From: a virus
Direction: 5' to 3' (one strand)
Length of the DNA stretch: 22,340 bases
IMG/VR virus record: IMGVR_UViG_3300042554_001476
Span: 1 to 22,340 of that record
Below are positions 2,836-22,294 of this stretch, piece after piece. The notes beneath the pieces are model-generated. The model was given only the letters and a program-made list of their open reading frames with translations. It was not told the DNA's origin and searched no databases. The position numbers and the translations under genes are program-made. How positions within the stretch are numbered: the stretch's first letter is position 1; every line of letters begins with the position of its first letter.

Positions 2836-3546
2836 ATGACATTACCAATGTATAAACATCCTGTCTATACAACAACATTGCCTTCTACTGGAAAGCAAAT
2901 AAAGTTTAGACCATTCTTAGTAAAGGATGAGAAAAACCTTCTTCTAGCGCAACAAAGCGAAGAAGAACTAAACATGATTGATACTTTAAAAACAGTTATA
3001 TCTGACTGTATTTTAGATAAAGATATTAATGTTGACGATCTTGCTATATTTGATTTAGAATATATGTTTACACAACTACGTGCTAAATCAGTTGGTGAAG
3101 AAGTTGAATTGATATTTACATGTAAAAATAATGAATGTAAAGACAAAACTAAAATATCTTTTAAGATTGAACCAGAACTAATTAGACCAGAAGGTCATAG
3201 TAATAAAATCGATCTGTTTGATGATGTTGGTGTAGTTATGAAGTATGCGAATTCTTCCATTCTAAAAGATATTTCAAAATTAGATACTTCAAATCCTGAT
3301 CAAATTTTAGATCTAATCGTAAGCTGTATTGATTACATTTACGATGCAGAATCTGTTTATCCTGCAAAAGAACAAAAGAAACAGGATTTAATTAAGTTCG
3401 TTGAGGGTTTGCCTAGAGCACCGACTGATAAAATTAAAAAGTTTTTTGAGACAACACCACGTTTGCAACAAAAGATTGAATTTGATTGTCCCAAATGTAA
3501 AACACATAATGATTATATAATTGAAGGAATAGATAGTTTTTTTTAA
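2836..3546 (+). CDS. 26: gp26-like baseplate/tail assembly protein (0-frame product)
   Basis: A 236-aa protein of the T4 base-plate protein gp26 family. It opens LPMYKHPVYTTTLPSTGKQI with KFRPFLVKDEKNLLLA following, and has DLEYMFTQLRAKSVGEEVEL in the middle. Four cysteines (C96, C101, C218, C221, the last pair as CPKC) look like a zinc-ribbon. A strong Shine-Dalgarno (AAGGGG) precedes the ATG by 8 nt, and it follows the terminase gene by 2 nt. The last two sense codons and the stop read TTT TTT TAA on a run of eight Ts, which is a -1 slippery site (separate entry). In T4, gp26 is needed for baseplate hub assembly. Confidence 0.85.
   Translation: MTLPMYKHPVYTTTLPSTGKQIKFRPFLVKDEKNLLLAQQSEEELNMIDTLKTVISDCILDKDINVDDLAIFDLEYMFTQLRAKSVGEEVELIFTCKNNECKDKTKISFKIEPELIRPEGHSNKIDLFDDVGVVMKYANSSILKDISKLDTSNPDQILDLIVSCIDYIYDAESVYPAKEQKKQDLIKFVEGLPRAPTDKIKKFFETTPRLQQKIEFDCPKCKTHNDYIIEGIDSFF
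3537..3543 (+). promoter_or_regulatory. -1 ribosomal frameshift site T_TTT_TTT
   Basis: Positions 3537-3544 are eight consecutive Ts, read in the gp26 frame as AG-T TTT TTT TAA. T_TTT_TTT satisfies the X_XXY_YYZ rule for -1 slippage and abuts the stop codon, which promotes slippage. A -1 shift leads into an open frame that continues to 3731 with no good start codon of its own. This matches the architecture of the tail-assembly chaperone frameshifts of lambda (G/GT) and P2 (E/E'). Confidence 0.75.
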
Positions 3547-3731
3547 TTTGCCTTAGTCATGAAAATTTGTTTAATCACTATCAAATAAATTTCGGTTTGG
3601 TTCAGCATCATAAATACTCACTTGAGGAACTAGAGAATATGATGCCATTTGAGAGGGAGATATATGTGTCGATGTTGTTACAACATCTAGAAGAAGAACG
3701 ACAAAGATTACAAGAAAGAATTAACAAATGA
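3543..3731 (+). CDS. Frameshift extension of gp26 (tail-chaperone-like C-terminal part)
   Basis: This frame is open from 3537 to TGA at 3729-3731 and would add 62 residues after F236 of gp26, giving a 298-aa fusion. The extension begins LICLSHENLFNHYQINF, then HHKYSLEELENMMPFERE and a charged amphipathic helix LLQHLEEERQRLQERINK. The short 'sL.eLe.M.pfE..iyv.lL' pattern resembles the second domain of frameshifted tail-assembly chaperones. The only ATGs in frame are deep inside and lack a Shine-Dalgarno, so an independent gene is unlikely. The stop overlaps the ATG of the tape-measure candidate (ATGA), implying coupling. A -1-frame fusion is therefore the best explanation. Confidence 0.7.
   Translation, partial: LICLSHENLFNHYQINFGLVQHHKYSLEELENMMPFEREIYVSMLLQHLEEERQRLQERINK
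3609..3616 (+). promoter_or_regulatory. Possible late promoter element CATAAATA
   Basis: CATAAATA resembles the T4 late consensus TATAAATA and lies 112 nt upstream of the tape-measure candidate. It lies inside the frameshift extension, so it may simply be coding sequence. Confidence 0.2.
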
Positions 3732-5389
3732 GATTAGTCTTAGATAAACTAGAAGAATATCAACCTGGAAATATAAAACTTAGACAGTTTGCAGGAGATC
3801 TCGCAGATAGTATCAAATCTAACTATGAGAGAGGAAGAACATCCGTAACAGGTGGTAAAGAAGGTGCTGGTTTAGCTGGTTCATCTTTTTTCGAAAGTTT
3901 GGGTCTAACAGGCATTGCTAAGGCATATAAAGAAAAATCAGAAGCAAAAGAGCAACGTCGTCAAGATAAAGAAAAATTTATTGGCGACTTTCAGCAATAT
4001 TCAGAAGCAGGAAAGACACTATCAGCAGACACCTCTCGTCAAATTGCTGATTCATTGTTTGAAGAAATTGCATCTAAACGTGAAGAATTAAAACGACTTC
4101 AAGAAGAAGAAGCAAGAATTCGAGAAGCAGGTTATAAAGTAAGCGAAGAAAATCTTGCGAAACAAAAAGAACTTGTTGATGCGATTAAAAATTTAGATCC
4201 AAGAACAGGTGACAAACAAGAAGGTCCTGCTGATCAAAATTTAAATCAAATACAATCTGCTGAAAAAGAAATGGAAGCAGCAGAAGTCGCTAGTGAACAT
4301 TTCGAAGTTCAGAAAAAAGAACAAGAAGATATTACTGCTCTTTATACAATTACCGATGACCATTTTAAGAAAATGGACAAACGTACTGAAGAAATGCTTG
4401 AAGCATTAAAGGTTATCGCCGAAAATGGTGTTGGTGGTGGAGGTGGTGGCTTACTTAGTAGTGCTGCTGATCTGCTCGGACGTGGTGGTAAAGCAGCAGG
4501 AACTGCAGGAAAAGTAGGCAAACTAGCAGGAATGGCTGGTAAACTTGGTACAGTTGCAAAAGTTGGTGGTGGTATACTAGCAGTAGGAACAGCTGCAGCT
4601 GATGCATATGGTGATTACTCTGAGGCACAAAGACAAGTTGATGCTGGAGAGATTACAAAAGAACAAGGACAAGTTAAGAAAGGCGAAGCAGTAGGTGGTG
4701 GTGTTGGTGCTGCTGGTGGTGCTCTCGCTGGAATGAAAGCAGGTGCTGCTTTAGGAACATTCTTAGGTCCAGTTGGAACAGTAGTTGGTGGTCTCCTTGG
4801 TGGAGCAGCAGGTTATATTGGTGGTAAATATCTCGGGAAAAAAGCAGGTGGTGGTGCAGTATCTGGTTATCAAGCAGTAACAGGAACTGGTGGAGAAATG
4901 GCAGCACCAGCAGCATCTCAAGCAGCACCAGCAGGCACAGAAAACACAAGTCAAGGACAGTCAATTGATCCTGAAGTAAAAGCAAAAGATCCACTCTATC
5001 AGAAAATTTTCCAAGAAGAGTTAAAACTGTCAGGAAATAATCGTGCAATCGCAGAAAAATTTGCAGATAAAAGATATTTACAAGAAAAAAATCTACAATC
5101 TAAAACTGGAGTGTCAAAAGTTTCTGATAAATCATCAGTTTCTGCTGCTACTCAAGCTACTCCAGAAAAAGTGCCAACATCTCAAGCAGTAGAAATTCAA
5201 GCACGCAGACGTGGTGTTCAAGATGCAGAAGCAGCAGCAGCACAAACATCTGGAAATAATACAAATGTAAATGCTCCAGTAACAAACGTAGTAAATAATA
5301 CTACGACACAACAAGGTCCAAAAGACACGAAAAATGCAGATACAACTTTTCAGAAATATCTAGATAGAAGATATTATCCTGCTGCATAA
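3728..5389 (+). CDS. Tape-measure-like tail protein (candidate gp29 analogue)
   Basis: A 553-aa protein directly downstream of the gp26/frameshift pair, which is the canonical tape-measure position. Residues about 60-230 are charged, Gln/Glu/Lys-rich and predicted helical. About 235-375 is a Gly/Ala-rich hydrophobic region (for example GGLLGGAAGYIGGKYLGKK) with glycine-zipper character. About 380-553 is polar and Asn/Thr/Gln-rich, ending TTFQKYLDRRYYPAA. This coil-plus-hydrophobic-centre layout is usual for tape measures, and the length is close to T4 gp29 (about 590 aa). I see no sequence motif that proves gp29 identity. A different large baseplate or internal protein remains possible. Confidence 0.55.
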   Translation: MRLVLDKLEEYQPGNIKLRQFAGDLADSIKSNYERGRTSVTGGKEGAGLAGSSFFESLGLTGIAKAYKEKSEAKEQRRQDKEKFIGDFQQYSEAGKTLSADTSRQIADSLFEEIASKREELKRLQEEEARIREAGYKVSEENLAKQKELVDAIKNLDPRTGDKQEGPADQNLNQIQSAEKEMEAAEVASEHFEVQKKEQEDITALYTITDDHFKKMDKRTEEMLEALKVIAENGVGGGGGGLLSSAADLLGRGGKAAGTAGKVGKLAGMAGKLGTVAKVGGGILAVGTAAADAYGDYSEAQRQVDAGEITKEQGQVKKGEAVGGGVGAAGGALAGMKAGAALGTFLGPVGTVVGGLLGGAAGYIGGKYLGKKAGGGAVSGYQAVTGTGGEMAAPAASQAAPAGTENTSQGQSIDPEVKAKDPLYQKIFQEELKLSGNNRAIAEKFADKRYLQEKNLQSKTGVSKVSDKSSVSAATQATPEKVPTSQAVEIQARRRGVQDAEAAAAQTSGNNTNVNAPVTNVVNNTTTQQGPKDTKNADTTFQKYLDRRYYPAA

Positions 5390-14020: not shown

Positions 14021-14103
14021 TGGTGCGGATGGTCGGAATCGAACCGACAAGCCGAAGCGAGGGATTTTAAGTCCCTTGTGTTTACCTATTTCACCACATC
14101 CGC
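14021..14103 (-). tRNA. tRNA-Leu(UAA)
   Basis: Cloverleaf with acceptor GCGGATG/CATCCGC, loop CTTAAAA (anticodon UAA), a class II variable arm, T-loop TTCGATT and encoded CCA. 83 nt. Last tRNA of the leftward array. Confidence 0.92.
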
Positions 14104-14109
14104 ATTGTT

Positions 14110-14187
14110 TGGAGTTGAGGGTGGGATTCGAACCCACGAATCGACAGTTTTGCAGACTGCGCCATTAAACCTCTCTGGCACCCCAAC
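14110..14187 (-). tRNA. tRNA-Cys(GCA)
   Basis: Acceptor GTTGGGG/CCTCAAC, loop CTGCAAA (anticodon GCA), discriminator U73 as expected for Cys, encoded CCA. 78 nt. Its 5' end lies one base after the stop of the oxygenase gene. Confidence 0.92.
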
Positions 14188-14188
14188 A

Positions 14189-14722
14189 TTAATATGCCCA
14201 AGCAACAAATGTATATCTTGTTCCCTCAGTTACCTCTTTAACACTATGCGGATATAAAAATGTAGAAGGAAACACAACAATATCTCCTTGCTTTAATTTT
14301 AATACCTCGTTGTTTATAACAAATTGTCCACCTTTAAAATTATCATTTAAACTACCAAGAAATGTAAGAACAGGTATTCCATCTTGTTTATTTCTTCTTA
14401 TCAAATCAAAATGTTCTGACATTACAGTTCCTGTCTTATACTTGTTTAATCTTATGTTACTATGATTACTAACTAAGTTACTTATTTTTAACTCATCATA
14501 GTATTTATGTAAAGCACTTTGTAAAAAATTTTTTAGAATATCTAAATTTTTATTATAAAGAACATCAAGTTCTTTTGTGTGGTGTGCTTTCTTTTCATCA
14601 GAAACATTGTTATACCAATTGTGAGTTTTCCATTCTTCATCGTTTTCGTATAACAATATCACCGAATCACATACATCTTTTGGCACTACGTTATATACTT
14701 TTACATAATCTTTTAGTTGCAT
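14189..14722 (-). CDS. 2OG-Fe(II) oxygenase (prolyl-4-hydroxylase type) inside the tRNA array
   Basis: A 177-aa protein starting MQLKDYVKVYNVVPKDVCDS, with GGAG 6 nt before the ATG at 14722. The frame continues upstream through tRNA-CAU, which is not coding. The active site is complete: SEHFDLI gives H104 and D106, YPHSVKEVTEGTRY gives the distal H159 and R169, with LTFLGSLNDNFKGGQFVI and GDIVVFPSTF between. Short P4H-like oxygenases are common in marine T4-like phages; known relatives hydroxylate proteins or nucleic acids. Flanked by tRNA genes on both sides and probably transcribed with them. The target is unknown. Confidence 0.85.
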   Translation of the reverse strand: MQLKDYVKVYNVVPKDVCDSVILLYENDEEWKTHNWYNNVSDEKKAHHTKELDVLYNKNLDILKNFLQSALHKYYDELKISNLVSNHSNIRLNKYKTGTVMSEHFDLIRRNKQDGIPVLTFLGSLNDNFKGGQFVINNEVLKLKQGDIVVFPSTFLYPHSVKEVTEGTRYTFVAWAY

Positions 14723-14736
14723 GTTATCTCCATTAA

Positions 14737-14811
14737 TGGTGGGCTGGGAGAGAATTGAACTCTCACTCAACCGATTATGAGTCGGCTGCTTTACCATTAA
14801 GCTACCAGCCC
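14737..14811 (-). tRNA. tRNA with CAU anticodon (Met or lysidine-Ile2)
   Basis: Acceptor GGGCTGG/CCAGCCC, loop CTCATAA (anticodon CAU), encoded CCA, 75 nt. The anticodon arm GACTCATAATC resembles bacterial tRNA-Ile2, so C34 might be lysidinylated to read AUA. Elongator Met is not excluded. Confidence 0.9.
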
Positions 14812-14816
14812 AAATT

Positions 14817-14895
14817 TGGTACCCCTGCTCAGATTCGAACTGAGAACAACTTCTCCTTTTGAGAGAGACGACTTTACCAATTTGTCCACAGGGGT
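14817..14895 (-). tRNA. tRNA-Leu(CAA), short variable loop
   Basis: Acceptor ACCCCTG/CAGGGGT, D-arm GTGGACAAATTGGTAAAG typical of Leu, loop CTCAAAA (anticodon CAA), encoded CCA, 79 nt. The variable region is only 7 nt, between class I and class II lengths, which is odd for Leu. Confidence 0.85.
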
Positions 14896-14906
14896 ATAAT
14901 TATATA

Positions 14907-14983
14907 TGGCGTCGCCAGCAGGACTCGAACCTGCGACCCACAGCTTAGAAGGCTGTTGTTCTATCCAGCTGAACTATGGCGAC
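14907..14983 (-). tRNA. tRNA-Arg(UCU)
   Basis: Acceptor GTCGCCA/TGGCGAC, loop CTTCTAA (anticodon UCU), T-loop TTCGAGT, discriminator G, encoded CCA. 77 nt. Confidence 0.92.
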
Positions 14984-14988
14984 AAAAT

Positions 14989-15075
14989 TGGCGGAGAGTA
15001 TAGGACTCGAACCTATGCACCGATTTCTCGATGACGGATTAGCAATCCGCTCCATTACCACTCTGGCAACTCTCC
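14989..15075 (-). tRNA. tRNA-Ser(GCU)
   Basis: Acceptor GGAGAGT/ACTCTCC, loop TTGCTAA (anticodon GCU), long class II variable arm, discriminator G, encoded CCA. 87 nt. Confidence 0.92.
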
Positions 15076-15080
15076 CTTAA

Positions 15081-15242
15081 CTAATCACAATATTCGCCGA
15101 CCTCACAAACCATAAAAGACAAATCACCAGCATCAACAGCACCTAAAGCCATTTCATATTCAGACAGCATAAGATTCGCTTCGGGTTCATCTTTAGCGAC
15201 ACCGATAACATTTTTATTAGAAAAAAGAATATAGACTTTCAT
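15081..15242 (-). CDS. Hypothetical 53-aa protein within the tRNA array
   Basis: A 53-aa protein, MKVYILFSNKNVIGVAKDEP ... EYEMALGAVDAGDLSFMVCE ... EYCD, with an excellent Shine-Dalgarno (AAGGAG) and its own consensus promoter 21 nt upstream. An opening beta-strand followed by a likely helix and an acidic C terminus suggests a small alpha/beta protein. I recognise no family. Its promoter would also transcribe the six tRNAs and two genes downstream (15075 to 13510), so it may matter mainly as a promoter-bearing unit. Confidence 0.7.
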   Translation of the reverse strand: MKVYILFSNKNVIGVAKDEPEANLMLSEYEMALGAVDAGDLSFMVCEVGEYCD

Positions 15243-15262
15243 TTATTTCTCCTTAAAGGTAT

Positions 15263-15291
15263 ATTATACCTCGAAAACGAATAAATGTCAA
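15263..15291 (-). promoter_or_regulatory. Consensus sigma70 promoter inside the tRNA array
   Basis: On minus, TTGACA at 15291-15286, 17-bp spacer, TATAAT at 15268-15263. Sequence from -35 to beyond -10 is near-identical to the promoter at 10983-11011, including TCGAGG just before the -10. Confidence 0.88.
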
Positions 15292-15311
15292 TACCCCACA
15301 AGACCTAAGAG

Positions 15312-15387
15312 TGGAGCGGAAGACGAGGCTCGAACTCGCGACATTCTGCTTGGCAAGCAGACATTCTACCAACTGAATTACTTCCGC
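15312..15387 (-). tRNA. tRNA-Gly(GCC)
   Basis: Acceptor GCGGAAG/CTTCCGC, loop TTGCCAA (anticodon GCC), discriminator U, encoded CCA. 76 nt. Confidence 0.92.
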
Positions 15388-15392
15388 ATATT

Positions 15393-15468
15393 TGGTGCAA
15401 CCCACAGGAATCGAACCTGTTTCAATGGCTCTTCAGACCATCGCTATGACCACATCAGCTAGAGTTGC
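15393..15468 (-). tRNA. tRNA-Phe(GAA)
   Basis: Acceptor GCAACTC/GGGTTGC with one G-U pair, loop CTGAAGA (anticodon GAA), T-loop TTCGATT, encoded CCA. 76 nt. Confidence 0.9.
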
Positions 15469-15480
15469 ATAAATTTTCTT

Positions 15481-15556
15481 TGGGTTGTTCTATGAGGATC
15501 GAACTCATACTATCTCGGTCACAACGAGAGGTGCAGACCACTACACTAAGAACAAC
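15481..15556 (-). tRNA. tRNA-His(GUG)
   Basis: Acceptor TTGTTCT/AGAACAA preceded by an extra G(-1) facing C73, the histidine identity element. Loop TTGTGAC (anticodon GUG), encoded CCA. 76 nt including G(-1). Confidence 0.92.
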
Positions 15557-15569
15557 CCAAAGAAAACTT

Positions 15570-15643
15570 TGGTGGGCGCACAGAGAATCGAACTCTGGTT
15601 TACTGGTTAAAAGCCAGTTACTTTGCCACTAAGTTATACACCC
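15570..15643 (-). tRNA. tRNA-Lys(UUU)
   Basis: Acceptor GGGTGTA/TGCGCCC with two G-U pairs, loop CTTTTAA (anticodon UUU), encoded CCA. 74 nt. Confidence 0.9.
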
Positions 15644-15650
15644 AAATGAT

Positions 15651-15725
15651 TGGCTGGGGATGATGGACTCGAACCACCGATGTCGGAATCAAAATCCGAT
15701 GCCTTACCAACTTGGCGAATCCCCA
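15651..15725 (-). tRNA. tRNA-Gln(UUG)
   Basis: Acceptor TGGGGAT/ATCCCCA with the U1-A72 pair typical of Gln, loop TTTTGAT (anticodon UUG), discriminator G, encoded CCA. 75 nt. Confidence 0.92.
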
Positions 15726-15730
15726 ATAAA

Positions 15731-15805
15731 TGGTGGTGATGGTTGGATTCGAGCCAACGACCTACTGCGTATGAAGCAGTTGCACTACCACTGTGCTACA
15801 TCACC
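15731..15805 (-). tRNA. tRNA with CAU anticodon (probable elongator Met)
   Basis: Acceptor GGTGATG/CATCACC fully paired, loop TTCATAC (anticodon CAU), T-loop CTCGAAT (C in place of the usual first T), encoded CCA. 75 nt. Elongator rather than initiator because 1:72 is paired. Confidence 0.9.
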
Positions 15806-15810
15806 ACATA

Positions 15811-15884
15811 TGGCATCCCGAGAGGGATTTGAACCCCCACCAACAGTTTTGGAGACTGGTATGCTGCCGTTACACTATCGAGAT
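15811..15884 (-). tRNA. tRNA-Trp(CCA)
   Basis: Acceptor ATCTCGA/TCGGGAT, loop CTCCAAA (anticodon CCA), T-loop TTCAAAT, discriminator G, encoded CCA. 74 nt. One mismatch at the base of the anticodon stem. Confidence 0.9.
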
Positions 15885-15889
15885 ATATT

Positions 15890-15964
15890 TGGTAGCCATG
15901 GACAATTTCGAAATGTCGACCCTCGCCTTATCAAGACGATGCTCTTCCTCTGAGCTACACGGCT
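15890..15964 (-). tRNA. tRNA-Ile(GAU)
   Basis: Acceptor AGCCGTG/CATGGCT, loop TTGATAA (anticodon GAU), T-loop TTCGAAA with one weak stem pair, encoded CCA. 75 nt. Confidence 0.88.
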
Positions 15965-15973
15965 GAATTATGT

Positions 15974-16065
15974 TGGCGGAAGTGGTGAGATTCGAACTCA
16001 CGGCACGCTATTAACGTACGACAGTTTTCAAGACTGCTGCCTTAAACCAGCTCAGCCACACTTCC
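15974..16065 (-). tRNA. tRNA-Ser(UGA)
   Basis: Acceptor GGAAGTG/CACTTCC, loop CTTGAAA (anticodon UGA), long class II variable arm, T-loop TTCGAAT, discriminator G, encoded CCA. 92 nt. Confidence 0.92.
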
Positions 16066-16069
16066 AAAT

Positions 16070-16144
16070 TGGCACGACCTGAGAGAATCAAACTCCCACT
16101 TCCACGTTCGTAGCGTGGTGTAATATTCATTTTACTAAAGTCGT
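16070..16144 (-). tRNA. tRNA-Arg(ACG), atypical D and T loops
   Basis: Acceptor ACGACTT/AGGTCGT, perfect anticodon stem CCACG/CGTGG, loop CTACGAA (anticodon ACG), encoded CCA, 75 nt. The D-loop region (AGTAAAATGAATATTA) lacks the conserved GG, and the T-loop reads TTTGATT with U in place of C56. G19 and C56 normally pair, so both partners are lost together. Confidence 0.8.
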
Positions 16145-16148
16145 ATGT

Positions 16149-16223
16149 TGGTGCTCAGTGAGAGGATCGAACTCCCGACCTTCTCCGTGTAAAGGAGACC
16201 TTCTACCGCTGAATTAACTGAGC
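16149..16223 (-). tRNA. tRNA-Val(UAC)
   Basis: Acceptor GCTCAGT/ACTGAGC, loop TTTACAC (anticodon UAC), T-loop TTCGATC, encoded CCA. 75 nt. Confidence 0.92.
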
Positions 16224-16230
16224 AAAATTA

Positions 16231-16313
16231 TGGTGCCCCAAGAGAGACTCGAACTCTCACACCGAAGTACTGGCTTCTAAGACCAGCGTGTCTACCAATT
16301 CCACCATCGGGGC
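16231..16313 (-). tRNA. tRNA-Leu(UAG)
   Basis: Acceptor GCCCCGA/TTGGGGC, Leu-type D-arm TGGTGGAATTGGTAGACAC, loop CTTAGAA (anticodon UAG), class II variable arm, encoded CCA. 83 nt. Confidence 0.92.
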
Positions 16314-16712
16314 ATGCAAAAACATTTTTGAACGTACTGATATGATTTTAAGAGCATCCTGTGCTCACTACATCTGGGCTTTAAGATTACCTTTGGCATC
16401 AGTAATCACCTCCATATACTGGACAACGTAGACAGTAGCGATGTTCTCCCCTATCAGTTGGGGTTGCCTTTTCTTTTGCATTCACGTTCAAAAATGCTTT
16501 CTTTCTGCGGTGGTAATTATAGTGTATCAGAGTTGCAACTCATCACTTACACCTTCCACCCACTTCCCGACCAGAAAGAACTCTCGTGTCGCCAACGCTG
16601 GTTAGGTAGACCTATGATTTTACTCATACCCTATTCAAAGGGAGAACCATCCTACTGATCGCCAATCAGTTTCTCTCGTGCGGATCACACTAGCAGTGGT
16701 TAGCTGCAGGTT
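16314..16712 (-). ncRNA. Structured 399-nt gap in the tRNA array, candidate non-coding RNA
   Basis: No convincing gene and no tRNA between tRNA-Ala and tRNA-Leu(UAG), although neighbours are spaced 4-15 nt. A perfect 13-bp inverted repeat (16323-16335 with 16484-16496) encloses 148 nt containing three further hairpins: 16352-16356/16362-16366, 16385-16390/16402-16407 and 16448-16451/16460-16463. The other half has a 6-bp hairpin (16654-16659/16665-16670), a 12-nt palindrome GAGTTGCAACTC at 16529-16540 and TAGGTAGACCTA at 16603-16614. On minus it also has very short ORFs of about 25 and 36 codons (MSKIIGLPNQRW..., MQKKRQPQLIGE...) without Shine-Dalgarno sites. I recognise no Rfam-type motif. 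It may be one or two phage ncRNAs or decayed sequence. Confidence 0.4.
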
Positions 16713-16786
16713 TGGTGGAGAATGAGAGAATCGAACTCTCAATCTCGGCTTGCAAAGCCGATGTTATCCCATTTAACTAATTCCCC
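16713..16786 (-). tRNA. tRNA-Ala(UGC)
   Basis: Acceptor GGGGAAT/ATTCTCC with one G-U, loop TTTGCAA (anticodon UGC), T-loop TTCGATT, encoded CCA. 74 nt. The usual Ala G3-U70 wobble is present. Confidence 0.92.
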
Positions 16787-16793
16787 ATATCGA

Positions 16794-16870
16794 TGGTCGG
16801 AGTAGCAGGGTTCGAACCTGCGACCCTCTGCTCCCAAAGCAGATGCGCTACCAGACTGCGCTATACTCCG
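16794..16870 (-). tRNA. tRNA-Pro(UGG)
   Basis: Acceptor CGGAGTA/TACTCCG with the C1-G72 pair typical of bacterial Pro, D-arm TAGCGCAGTCTGGTAGCGCA, loop TTTGGGA (anticodon UGG), T-loop TTCGAAC, encoded CCA. 77 nt. The most bacterial-looking tRNA of the set. Confidence 0.93.
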
Positions 16871-16876
16871 ATAAAC

Positions 16877-16952
16877 TGGTGCCCCAGGAGAGACTCGAAC
16901 TCCCGACTTACTGCTTACAAGGCAGTTACTCTACCAACTGAGTTACTAGGGC
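16877..16952 (-). tRNA. tRNA-Thr(UGU)
   Basis: Acceptor GCCCTAG/CTGGGGC, loop CTTGTAA (anticodon UGU), T-loop TTCGAGT, encoded CCA. 76 nt. Confidence 0.92.
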
Positions 16953-16956
16953 AAAT

Positions 16957-17032
16957 TGGCTGTCTAGGGTGGGCTCGAACCACCGACCAAGTGATTAACA
17001 GTCACCTACTCTACCGACTGAGCTACTAGACA
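16957..17032 (-). tRNA. tRNA-Asn(GUU)
   Basis: Acceptor TGTCTAG/CTAGACA, loop CTGTTAA (anticodon GUU), T-loop TTCGAGC, discriminator G, encoded CCA. 76 nt. Confidence 0.92.
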
Positions 17033-17039
17033 ACAAAAC

Positions 17040-17113
17040 TGGTAGCGGAGGATGGAATCGAACCAACAACTAGAGCATATGAAACTCTCGAGATACCATT
17101 TCTCTACTCCGCA
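17040..17113 (-). tRNA. tRNA with CAU anticodon, 1:72 mismatch (initiator-like)
   Basis: Acceptor TGCGGAG facing CTCCGCT leaves a U1/U72 mismatch with six pairs below. Loop TTCATAT (anticodon CAU), D-arm GAGAAATGGTATCTC, encoded CCA, 74 nt. An unpaired 1:72 is the formylation mark of bacterial initiator tRNA. The three G-C pairs usual in the initiator anticodon stem are absent. Confidence 0.85.
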
Positions 17114-17118
17114 AAACT

Positions 17119-17193
17119 TGGCGGTCCCAAGGGGTAACGATCCCCTTCTTTATGCGTGACAGGCATATGTGCGTCCATGAACACTTTGGAACC
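17119..17193 (-). tRNA. tRNA-Asp(GUC), inverted T-loop pair
   Basis: Acceptor GGTTCCA/TGGGACC, anticodon stem TATGC/GCATA perfect, loop CTGTCAC (anticodon GUC), discriminator G as usual for Asp, encoded CCA, 75 nt. The T-loop reads ATCGTTA, so the universal T54-A58 pair is replaced by A54/T58. General tRNA searches may miss it. Confidence 0.82.
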
Positions 17194-17198
17194 TTATA

Positions 17199-17291
17199 TG
17201 GTGGGTGTGGTTGGAGTCGAACCAACAATGTTTACCCAGAGGGATCGGATTTACAGTCCGAGGATGCACACGCCATAGCATCAACACACCC
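17199..17291 (-). tRNA. tRNA-Tyr(GUA)
   Basis: Acceptor GGGTGTG/CACACCC, loop CTGTAAA (anticodon GUA), long class II variable arm as in bacterial Tyr, T-loop TTCGACT, encoded CCA. 93 nt. Confidence 0.92.
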
Positions 17292-17298
17292 ATATAAG

Positions 17299-17372
17299 TG
17301 GAGCGGAATGTGAGAATCGAACTCACGACTGAAGTTTGGAAGACTGCCGTTTTACCATTAAACTAATCCCGC
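17299..17372 (-). tRNA. tRNA-Gly(UCC)
   Basis: Acceptor GCGGGAT/ATTCCGC with one G-U, loop CTTCCAA (anticodon UCC), one anticodon-stem mismatch, T-loop TTCGATT, encoded CCA. 74 nt. Confidence 0.9.
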
Positions 17373-17378
17373 AAAATT

Positions 17379-17531
17379 TGGTGGTAGCCTGAGCGTCTCC
17401 CGACGAGTCTACTACCATTGGTTCTGTTGACGCACTGTTTGCTATGACTCATATGCTTTATCTAGAATTACATCTTATCATCATAGTTAGTCAGGCATGA
17501 TCAAGCCCATCGCTTACATCAACAGAACTAA
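17379..17531 (-). ncRNA. CCA-ended non-tRNA element, candidate structured RNA
   Basis: Between tRNA-Glu and tRNA-Gly(UCC), at normal tRNA spacing on both sides, lie 153 nt that are not a cloverleaf yet end in ...CTACC-A-CCA like the tRNAs. Near the 3' end, GGTAG (17416-17412) can pair with CTACC (17387-17383) around a CGTC-GGGA-GACG hairpin, giving a 38-nt minihelix-like end. A second, longer stem pairs 17413-17432 with 17517-17536 (18 Watson-Crick pairs of 20, one wobble) and includes the CCA of tRNA-Glu. It lacks a TTCRA T-loop and a D-arm. A degenerate tRNA with an insertion and a dedicated ncRNA are both possible. Confidence 0.4.
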
Positions 17532-17536
17532 TGGTA
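17413..17536. repeat. 20-bp imperfect inverted repeat
   Basis: Arms at 17413-17432 and 17517-17536, 84 nt apart; core GGTTCTGTTGA/TCAACAGAACT. Two differences in 20 positions, one of them a G-U pair in RNA. Confidence 0.7.
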
Positions 17537-17607
17537 CTCCGTGGGGGAATCGAACCCCTCCTTACTGCCGTGAAAGGGCAGTGTCCTAACCGATAGACGA
17601 ACGGAGC
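17532..17607 (-). tRNA. tRNA-Glu(UUC)
   Basis: Acceptor GCTCCGT/ACGGAGT with G1-U72, loop CTTTCAC (anticodon UUC), T-loop TTCGATT, encoded CCA. 76 nt. First tRNA after the array promoter. Confidence 0.92.
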
Positions 17608-19556: not shown

Positions 19557-19895
19557 ATGAAACCCCTATTAATGTTATGTTTATTGATTCCAACTTTTGT
19601 GTTTGCAAATGAAACATCTTCTTTGCCCACAGTCTGCATTACTATAAGCGACTTAGCAAAGACACTTGATGAATATGAAGAGTTACCACTTGTTCGTGGA
19701 ACTGGTAACTCTTTAGTAGACGGAAGTTCTTTTCCTGTAGTTGTCTTTGCTAATGGTAAAACGGGAACTTTTACTATTACTCAAAGGCAAAGTAAAGATT
19801 TGTATTGTATTCTTGCAGTAGGAACTAACTTTCAGCCTGTGCCAAAAGAAATGCAAGACACAATAAAAGATTCACAACAAAAAGATAAATTATGA
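19557..19895 (+). CDS. Small exported protein with Sec signal peptide
   Basis: A 112-aa protein with a signal peptide (MKPLLMLCLLIPTFVFA, cleavage before N18). The mature part has two cysteines, VCITISDLAKTLDEY and DLYCILAVGTNF, about 58 residues apart, which could form one disulfide. It is predicted mainly beta-rich (FPVVVFANGKTGTFTITQ). Its last four bases overlap the start of the 800-aa gene (ATGA), indicating coupling. I recognise no family. Together with its neighbours it points to a periplasmic or outer-surface assembly. Confidence 0.7.
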   Translation: MKPLLMLCLLIPTFVFANETSSLPTVCITISDLAKTLDEYEELPLVRGTGNSLVDGSSFPVVVFANGKTGTFTITQRQSKDLYCILAVGTNFQPVPKEMQDTIKDSQQKDKL

Positions 19896-22294
19896 AAAAA
19901 ATTTTATTGTTATTGTTATTAACATCAAGTAACTTGTTTGCTCAAGTAGTAGGAACACAGCCATCACCTACCGCAACATACACAGCAACTTCTAATCTAT
20001 TAAACCCAACAGTAAATGCATGGACTGGAACTGTTCAAGGTCAAAATGGTGGTTTTATAGGAGGAAATACTCCAGCATTTAATCCTAGCACAAACACAAT
20101 TATATTTGGATATACACAAGCCACTGCTATGCAGACAATTGCTATCAATCAAGCATTGTCTGGAACAGGAATACAAGTTGGTGGTTACAATTATTCGTGG
20201 AGTATTAATAATGACCCCGCCACCATGCAATATGGAACACTTACTGGTCAAGTTGTATTGAAAGATTCTGTAGGAAATGCTCTTCAAACATATAACTACA
20301 ACTATCCACAACAGAGTGGAGGATTTATAAACTTCTCTGGCACACAGTGGTTCCCCCAAGATTATACATTGGCCAATCTATCCAACTTGGAACTTTCTTT
20401 CACTGGCAAAGACGCAAGATTTTGGGCAGGCTACTATGGACCACAAGTTCGCAACCCCTCTTTAACATTGCAGTATACAGTTGATCCTTGTGTAACTAAT
20501 CCAGCATACTCTCCATCATGTCCAGGATATAATACAGTACAAATAAGTAATAATCTTTTACCTGGAACTACAGGAACCCAAGCATATGCTATCAATCAAG
20601 CACTGGCTTTAGCAGGCGCAGGTGCTACTATTCATGGATTTGATTATGGATATAATTACAGTGTTGCTGGTAGACAATGTGCCATTTTTGATTTGTTTGG
20701 ATTTTGTTTAACTGGTTGGAATTATTCAGACGCAGGTGTTGCTACAGTTATAACTGATGCTAACAATGCAACAATATTCAGCGAATCAAATACACACAAT
20801 GGTGGAAACAACGGAGTATCTGGTTCGTATTCAAAACAATACAGATTAAACTCTTCTGTTCCAATGTCAACTCTTGGGGCATTCGCAATGTCACCTTGGA
20901 CAATTGGTGCTGCTACAATTAGTAATATGTATAGTAACGCAGTTTATACACCAGATCCATGCTTAGCGAATCCTCTATCATCACCATCTTGTGCTGGATA
21001 TGCCCAAGCATATTTCAATCAACAGTGTTCATCTAATGCTTTGTTTGATCCACAATGTCCAGGATATGCTGCTGCATATTTCAATCAACAATGCACACTT
21101 AATCAATTATACAATCCTTCTTGTCCAGGATATGCTGCTGCTTATTTAACTCAACAATGTTCTTTAAATCCTCTATATGCACCGCAGTGTCCAGGGTATG
21201 CTCAAGCATATCTTAACCAACAATGCACAGCGAATCCATTGTATGATTCTGCTTGCCCAGGATATAATACTGCTTCAACTCAATGCGCATCAAATCCACT
21301 TTATGCATCTTACTGTCCAAGTTATCAAAATGCTACAACACAATGTAGTTCGAATGCACTATATGCTTCATATTGTCCAGGATATTCAACAGCACAAGCA
21401 ACATGTTCAACTAATCCATTAAGCAATACACTCTGCTCTGGATATGCAGCTGCGAATACTGCTTGTTCTAGTAATCAATTAACATATTCTTATTGCCCAA
21501 GTTACACTACAACACTTGCTTCTTGTGGATCAAATCCGCAATCTAATACAATGTGTCCAGGATACAATGTAAACTCAACAAATACAACAGCAACAAACTC
21601 TAACAATCCATCATCTTCCACAAGGTCAACAACAGAAACAACAATTGCTGTAGCAGCAGATGGTAAAGTAGAAGCAGGTGTTTCTAAGACTGGCGACAGT
21701 AACGCTGATAGAGTAATTGCAACAACAACTGTAACGACTAACTCTGCTGCAGAACCAGCTGCTCCAGTTCAATTATCTAAACAGAGCGGAGAAAGTAATA
21801 CTGGACCAACACCTACTGCTGTTGTCGTTGCTTCAGAAAGAAAACAGGAAAAGCAAGAGGATAGAAAACAAGAGGAGAAAAAACAAGATGGGTCTACTAG
21901 CGGAAGCACTGCTCAAAGTGCGCAGAACACATCTACTAAAACAGATTCTCAAAGTGTTGGAGGTCAAAAAACAGCAAGACAAGAAATTAATGAAAGAAGA
22001 GCCGAAGTAGCAAAACAACAAGAGATATCAAAAGGAAAAGAAGCACAAAAAGAAGTTTCTAATGCTCAAAACTTTGAGCAACAAAAACAAGTGCAAACTG
22101 TAGTAATTTCTGCTATGGGATTTGTTCCAGGGTTTGATACTTACGGAAAATCTTTTATACCTGATGGTCGTGGTTATCAACCATTTACAGTATATAACAA
22201 TCAGAAAAATGTAGATAACGCAAGAACGCTAAGAGGTTTGTCTGGCGCATCAGAGCGTTTACATAATGAATTAGTAGAATTACAATGGAAATAA
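19892..22294 (+). CDS. Large exported Cys-repeat protein
   Basis: An 800-aa protein with a signal peptide (MKKILLLLLLTSSNLFA, cleavage before Q18). Residues about 30-200 and 220-355 look like a duplicated beta-rich domain: both have an AINQAL(S/A) turn, a GYNYSWS or GYNYSVA strand and end in a (V/T)PDPC..NP motif. About 354-560 hold ten tandem 17-22-residue repeats of the form C..NpLy...CPGY..ay..Q, each with two cysteines. About 560-690 is Ser/Thr/Asn-rich. About 690-760 is charged (KQEKQEDRKQEEKK), and the end is globular (FVPGFDTYGKSFIPDGRGYQ). The organisation resembles a fibrous surface protein. No named family is recognised. Confidence 0.75.
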   Translation: MKKILLLLLLTSSNLFAQVVGTQPSPTATYTATSNLLNPTVNAWTGTVQGQNGGFIGGNTPAFNPSTNTIIFGYTQATAMQTIAINQALSGTGIQVGGYNYSWSINNDPATMQYGTLTGQVVLKDSVGNALQTYNYNYPQQSGGFINFSGTQWFPQDYTLANLSNLELSFTGKDARFWAGYYGPQVRNPSLTLQYTVDPCVTNPAYSPSCPGYNTVQISNNLLPGTTGTQAYAINQALALAGAGATIHGFDYGYNYSVAGRQCAIFDLFGFCLTGWNYSDAGVATVITDANNATIFSESNTHNGGNNGVSGSYSKQYRLNSSVPMSTLGAFAMSPWTIGAATISNMYSNAVYTPDPCLANPLSSPSCAGYAQAYFNQQCSSNALFDPQCPGYAAAYFNQQCTLNQLYNPSCPGYAAAYLTQQCSLNPLYAPQCPGYAQAYLNQQCTANPLYDSACPGYNTASTQCASNPLYASYCPSYQNATTQCSSNALYASYCPGYSTAQATCSTNPLSNTLCSGYAAANTACSSNQLTYSYCPSYTTTLASCGSNPQSNTMCPGYNVNSTNTTATNSNNPSSSTRSTTETTIAVAADGKVEAGVSKTGDSNADRVIATTTVTTNSAAEPAAPVQLSKQSGESNTGPTPTAVVVASERKQEKQEDRKQEEKKQDGSTSGSTAQSAQNTSTKTDSQSVGGQKTARQEINERRAEVAKQQEISKGKEAQKEVSNAQNFEQQKQVQTVVISAMGFVPGFDTYGKSFIPDGRGYQPFTVYNNQKNVDNARTLRGLSGASERLHNELVELQWK
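20953..21569 (+). repeat. Ten coding tandem repeats (two-Cys units)
   Basis: In-frame units of 51-66 bp within the 800-aa gene. The protein pattern is C..N.LY...CPGY followed by a short linker. Units 1-5 carry the longer AYFNQQ-type linker and units 6-10 a shorter Thr/Ala linker, suggesting two rounds of duplication. Confidence 0.8.

Follow-up and report, generated by a model that had tools for sequence, protein, structure and literature searches.

Phages usually obtain two forms of a tail assembly chaperone through a −1 slip of the ribosome. The E/E+E′ pair of phage P2 is encoded with a U-rich heptamer, T_TTT_TTG, just 5′ of the E stop codon. The abstract of a 2022 study of T4-like phages reportedly describes frameshifting as kept in several T4-like groups, with T4 using genes 26 and 51. 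Tail assembly chaperone (TAC) genes of T4-like phages were identified by Vladimirov, Gautam & Davidson (2022, Virology, doi 10.1016/j.virol.2021.11.003), according to a passage of the PRFect paper (PMC10885494), which also cites that work for some T4-like phages having separate short and long (fused) TAC genes. In the paper on phage Adele (PMC12846349), poly-T −1 slippery sequences within T4-like TAC-N genes are credited to that study. An earlier review listed T4 as the exception to G-T frameshifting (PMC5009743). T4 gp26 and gp51 have both been classed as hub assembly chaperones; gp51 is needed for assembly and is absent from the particle (PMC3004832). A 2010 comparison of cyanophages found their gp51 to be about 20% of the T4 gp51, or normal, length (PMC3037559).

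The window analysed here is a 22,340-base record of an uncultured virus known from metagenome contigs only. An open reading frame on the plus strand (positions 2836–3546) encodes a gp26 homologue of 236 amino acids, the short form or TAC-N, with matches to PF12322 (T4_baseplate, E = 2.7e-56) and phrog_150 (E = 1.2e-61). Its 3′ codons are AGT (3535), TTT (3538), TTT (3541) and TAA (3544). A run of eight T at positions 3537–3544 includes the slippery heptamer T_TTT_TTT in the gp26 frame (3537–3543, plus strand), and the stop codon TAA (3544–3546) adjoins it. The −1 frame is closed upstream by a TAG directly 5′ of the heptamer (3534–3536) and is open from the heptamer to a TGA at 3729–3731, i.e. 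for 62 codons after the slip. This extension (3543–3731, plus strand), termed TAC-C, would together with gp26 form a 298 amino acid chain, TAC-NC. Its stop codon overlaps, as ATGA, the ATG at 3728 of the next open reading frame (3728–5389, plus strand; 553 aa), a tape-measure candidate. From the TAG that closes the −1 frame to extension residue 8, this virus has no ATG, GTG or TTG. The sole early start is a TTG at 3567, and its use would remove the conserved first 8 residues. A sequence-only reading of this DNA had described gp26 as ending TTT TTT TAA with an X_XXY_YYZ heptamer before the stop, and the −1 frame as open for 62 codons, lacking a usable start and overlapping the next ATG with its stop; all of these details are correct.

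An open stretch of at least 60 codons is rarely expected by chance, as 60 codons remain open in 0.4% of mononucleotide shuffles. The gp26-extension junction is identical in three other IMG/VR contigs and is kept in a related locus (L005) whose gp26 is 92% identical. Thus the junction is not an assembly error.

For comparison, 101 related loci whose end could be read were used, T4 aside, comprising this locus, IMG/VR loci and named phages. The IMG/VR loci were retrieved by peptide patterns in the N-terminal and central parts of gp26; as the C-terminus was unused, the heptamer was not selected for. Removal of loci with >80% protein identity left 86 non-redundant loci. T_TTT_TTT or T_TTT_TTC is present in the gp26 frame, 0–9 nt before the stop codon, in 101 of 101 loci (86 of 86 non-redundant), and a gp51-like stretch follows it in the −1 frame in all 101. 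Elsewhere in the same loci an in-phase heptamer is found at 34 of 377 Phe-Phe pairs (9%). The enrichment, 86/86 against 34/377, gives a Fisher p of about 6e-66, a value that overstates the significance because the loci are phylogenetically related and not independent. The alignment of gp26 loci proposed in the sequence-only reading thus displays both the slippery run and the −1 extension in every one of the 86 non-redundant relatives.

Lineages with the heptamer range from cyanophages to phages of Vibrio, Cronobacter, Stenotrophomonas and Sinorhizobium. Among outlying phages beyond these loci, Aeromonas phage Ahp1 has the T_TTT_TTC form. The gp26 gene of Rhizobium phage RHph_Y68 shows T_TTT_TTG, which is also a possible slippery heptamer. 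A gp26-like gene with a −1 extension is also found in Vibrio phages 1.255.O (L109, 2357–3249; assigned to Ackermannviridae) and VPALA (L111, 2495–3300). The canonical heptamer is absent in these two, where the gene ends are CTT TTT CGC TAA and CTT TTC AGA TAA, respectively, with an ATG at the gp26-like stop in 1.255.O. These two phages may produce the long form in another way.

The 62-residue extension matches phrog_634, annotated as "baseplate hub assembly catalyst" (gp51), with E = 1e-25, and the C-terminus of phrog_150 with E = 7e-8. Thus the extension corresponds to a known protein, an identity that the sequence-only reading had missed. A tblastn search with the extension yielded 553 phage records, mainly of cyanophages but including vibriophages, Aeromonas phages and pelagiphages; a Pfam search with the 62 amino acids alone gave no match. 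In public records the extension is annotated as a separate gp51, is truncated, or is missed. It is a separate gp51 in the records of P-SSM2, S-PM2, HTVC008M and Melnitz, and gp51 is absent from the annotations of S-WAM2 and ACG-2014j. The region is also missed or truncated in records of cyanophages, pelagiphages and a Methylophilales phage (L011, L012, L015, L016).

For 37 close, mutually independent pairs, substitutions were counted over extension codons 1–40. They number 178, 91 and 476 at codon positions 1, 2 and 3 of the −1 frame, i.e. third positions dominate. This pattern indicates that the extension is under purifying selection as a −1-frame protein. Sequence conservation starts directly after the slip point.

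In T4, genes 26 and 51 are in a divergent arrangement. T4 gp51 (249 aa) covers positions 13–280 of the 282 positions of phrog_150, and T4 gp26 only 14–235. T4 gp51 is one open reading frame consisting of a gp26-like domain and the extension, and the same holds for five further phages in which the genes are separate. A profile of the extension matches the C-termini of gp51 from T4, 44RR and others but matches no gp26; a profile of the N-domain matches both gp26 and gp51. None of the six separate-gene phages examined (T4 and the five others) has the heptamer in gp26. A model of a T-even gp51 shows the element order of the gp26 model with extra C-terminal helices. Because gp51 is a gp26-like domain plus the extension and gp26 is without the site, T4 has a gene for each form, 26 and 51. 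By sequence comparison, the short form in T4-type phages is thus assigned to gene 26 and the long form to gene 51. In the remaining T4-like relatives both forms are most likely produced from one gene by frameshifting.

The extension could instead be an independent small gene 51, with a non-standard or downstream start and translation coupled to gp26 termination, as most public records, including those of the four phages named above, annotate it. An ATG is present in the open −1 frame in 24 of the 86 loci, in some within the first residues, and a Shine-Dalgarno (SD)-like motif upstream of the heptamer could serve initiation. However, what lies 9 nt 3′ of the end of that motif is the heptamer, where there is no start codon. 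In 53 of 86 loci, this virus included, ATG, GTG and TTG are lacking from the open −1 frame as far as residue 8, and only 2 of 86 have a start codon for the extension preceded by an SD-like motif. Thus separate initiation is not the general route, and an independent start is rejected for most loci. An independent gene would also leave the invariant heptamer unexplained, as well as the onset of conservation right after the slip and the gp26-like N-domain of T4 gp51. Taken as a whole, this explanation is very unlikely. In the 26 of 86 loci with a start codon among the first extension residues, separate initiation of the extension may occur.

RNA polymerase might also slip on the T run, so that the long form would come from mRNAs with one additional U or two fewer. 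Eight T are present here and in 25 of 101 loci, but 68 of 101 have only six, a short run for a slip of this kind. On account of this majority with six T, transcriptional slippage is rejected as the main mechanism; moreover, the exact X_XXY_YYZ phase and the adjacency to the stop codon are kept, and only a ribosome would require these. Its probability is placed below that of an independent gene 51. A chance T run next to a decayed or mis-assembled gene without function, for which only the AT-rich window with its 27 overlapping T_TTT_TTY matches on both strands can be cited, has a negligible probability and is refuted by the comparative data, i.e. the identical junction in the other contigs, the in-phase heptamer kept in all relatives against a 9% background, and purifying selection in the −1 frame.

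The comparisons confirm a real and, as far as the sequences indicate, functional programmed −1 frameshift site at the end of gp26. With high confidence, based on sequence and structure models, the locus is predicted to make TAC-N (236 aa) and, by −1 slippage, TAC-NC (298 aa), which would act as chaperones for the neighbouring tape measure. The majority of ribosomes would terminate at the TAA at 3544, giving TAC-N. In a minority, tRNA-Phe in the P and A sites on T_TTT_TTT would slip one base back, and these ribosomes would read 62 further codons to give TAC-NC, with the annotated gp51 domain as its C-terminal part. By analogy with lambda gpG/gpGT, many copies of TAC-N and few of TAC-NC would coat the protein product of the tape measure gene directly 3′, with TAC-C recruiting tube or hub proteins. 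In T4, two genes supply these forms, 26 the short one and 51 the long one.

The AlphaFold2 model of gp26 has a pLDDT of 90.9. A Foldseek search with this model gave chain 2ob9, the HK97 tail assembly chaperone, as the top match (probability 0.89; E = 0.23, weak by E-value). VIA-align of the gp26 N-domain gave Z-scores of 8.2 with 3fgx and 7.5 with 2ob9 over 84–86 residues, well above the other rows. These model comparisons offer moderate, but not decisive, evidence that the gp26 N-domain has a TAC-type fold like that of the HK97 chaperone. The 2ob9 chain has ~107 residues as compared with 236 in gp26, and the remainder of gp26 is without a counterpart there. A search of the PDB with the gp26 sequence gave chance matches only. 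The long form was represented by the natural, single open reading frame gp51 of a T-even phage in place of the −1-joined fusion, and VIA-align of this model gave weak rows only (best Z 4.8; 2ob9 Z 3.7) and so yielded no fold assignment for the C-domain.

A long open reading frame (454–929 aa where complete) lies directly 3′ of the extension in 93 of 100 relatives. In this virus, the 553-aa open reading frame overlapping the extension stop has a weak match to the phrog_794 tape measure (E = 2.9e-4). The position of the downstream open reading frame is as expected for a tape measure gene, and it is the probable partner of the two forms. Upstream of gp26, a terminase small subunit gene with a TTG start (2402–2833; PF11053, phrog_445) is found within the tail module, between a holin-like gene (PF11351, 1990–2412) and gp26. 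Near the other end of the window, positions 19892–22294 encode an 800-aa cysteine-rich protein with many repeat copies like C..NPLY.P.CPGY.

In most of the 86 loci a GGAGGG, GAGGG or AAGG motif ends exactly 9 nt 5′ of the heptamer. The Glu of the underlying Glu-Gly pair is encoded by GAG in 47 of 60 cases, versus 23% in gene bodies, and the anti-SD duplex energy is −7.6 kcal/mol versus −6.0 kcal/mol for synonymous shuffles (p = 3e-10). In this virus the motif is a weak one, GAAGGA (3523–3528, plus strand), with 9 nt between the end of its AAGG and the heptamer, a distance kept in relatives. The RNA of the 60 nt downstream is more stable than synonymous shuffles, with a mean z of −1.6 and z below −2 in 37 of 86 loci. 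A stem-loop is present there in many relatives; in this virus the 3′ RNA is no more stable than its synonymous shuffles (z = +0.2). The window also has 27 tRNA genes at 14021–17607 on the minus strand, for all 20 amino acids, a nearly complete set for a phage. One of these is a tRNA-Phe(GAA) (15393–15468, minus strand; ARAGORN), which reads both slippery-site codons; an effect of it on slippage is speculation. Tentatively, and with some doubt, the T4-like TAC frameshift is proposed to have conserved bacterial-style stimulators, SD-like GGAGGG/GAGGG 9 nt 5′ and lineage-specific stem-loops 3′, which would form an undescribed cassette, with phage tRNA-Phe possibly tuning efficiency in some viruses. 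The conserved SD-like element makes control of the ratio of short to long form testable.

The sequence-only reading had proposed a −1 chaperone pair like lambda G/GT or P2 E/E′ 5′ of the tape measure. The mechanism is strongly supported by the heptamer in 86 of 86 loci and the gp51 domain in the −1 frame; the claim that it had not been described for gp26 does not hold, as T4-like TAC genes were reported in 2022 according to the passages in PMC10885494 and PMC12846349. The frameshift at gp26 is thus already described for T4-like phages, and the flanking elements may be undescribed. The data support the interpretation put forward in 2022, in which a chaperone pair otherwise made by frameshifting is split in T4 between genes 26 and 51. 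What is called "gp51" in cyanophages, pelagiphages and many T4-like viruses from the environment is most likely the C-terminal domain that frameshifting adds to gp26 and not a gene of its own, which accounts for cyanophage gp51 being only ~20% of the T4 gp51 length (PMC3037559).

The T4-like TAC genes 26 and 51 share the families PF12322, phrog_150 and phrog_634 with this locus, and the poly-T −1 slippery site in TAC-N, which a passage of PMC12846349 attributes to the 2022 work, is as found here. T4 has two genes, whereas this uncultured virus has one gene and a frameshift site. For an internal SD-like stimulator 9 nt 5′ of T_TTT_TTY, dnaX is a point of comparison. The slippery site of lambda gpG/gpGT involves tRNA-Lys (PMC5009743), in contrast to the U-rich site here, which involves tRNA-Phe. 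A U-rich heptamer just 5′ of the stop is a likeness to P2 E, and gp26 of RHph_Y68 carries exactly the P2 heptamer, TTTTTTG.
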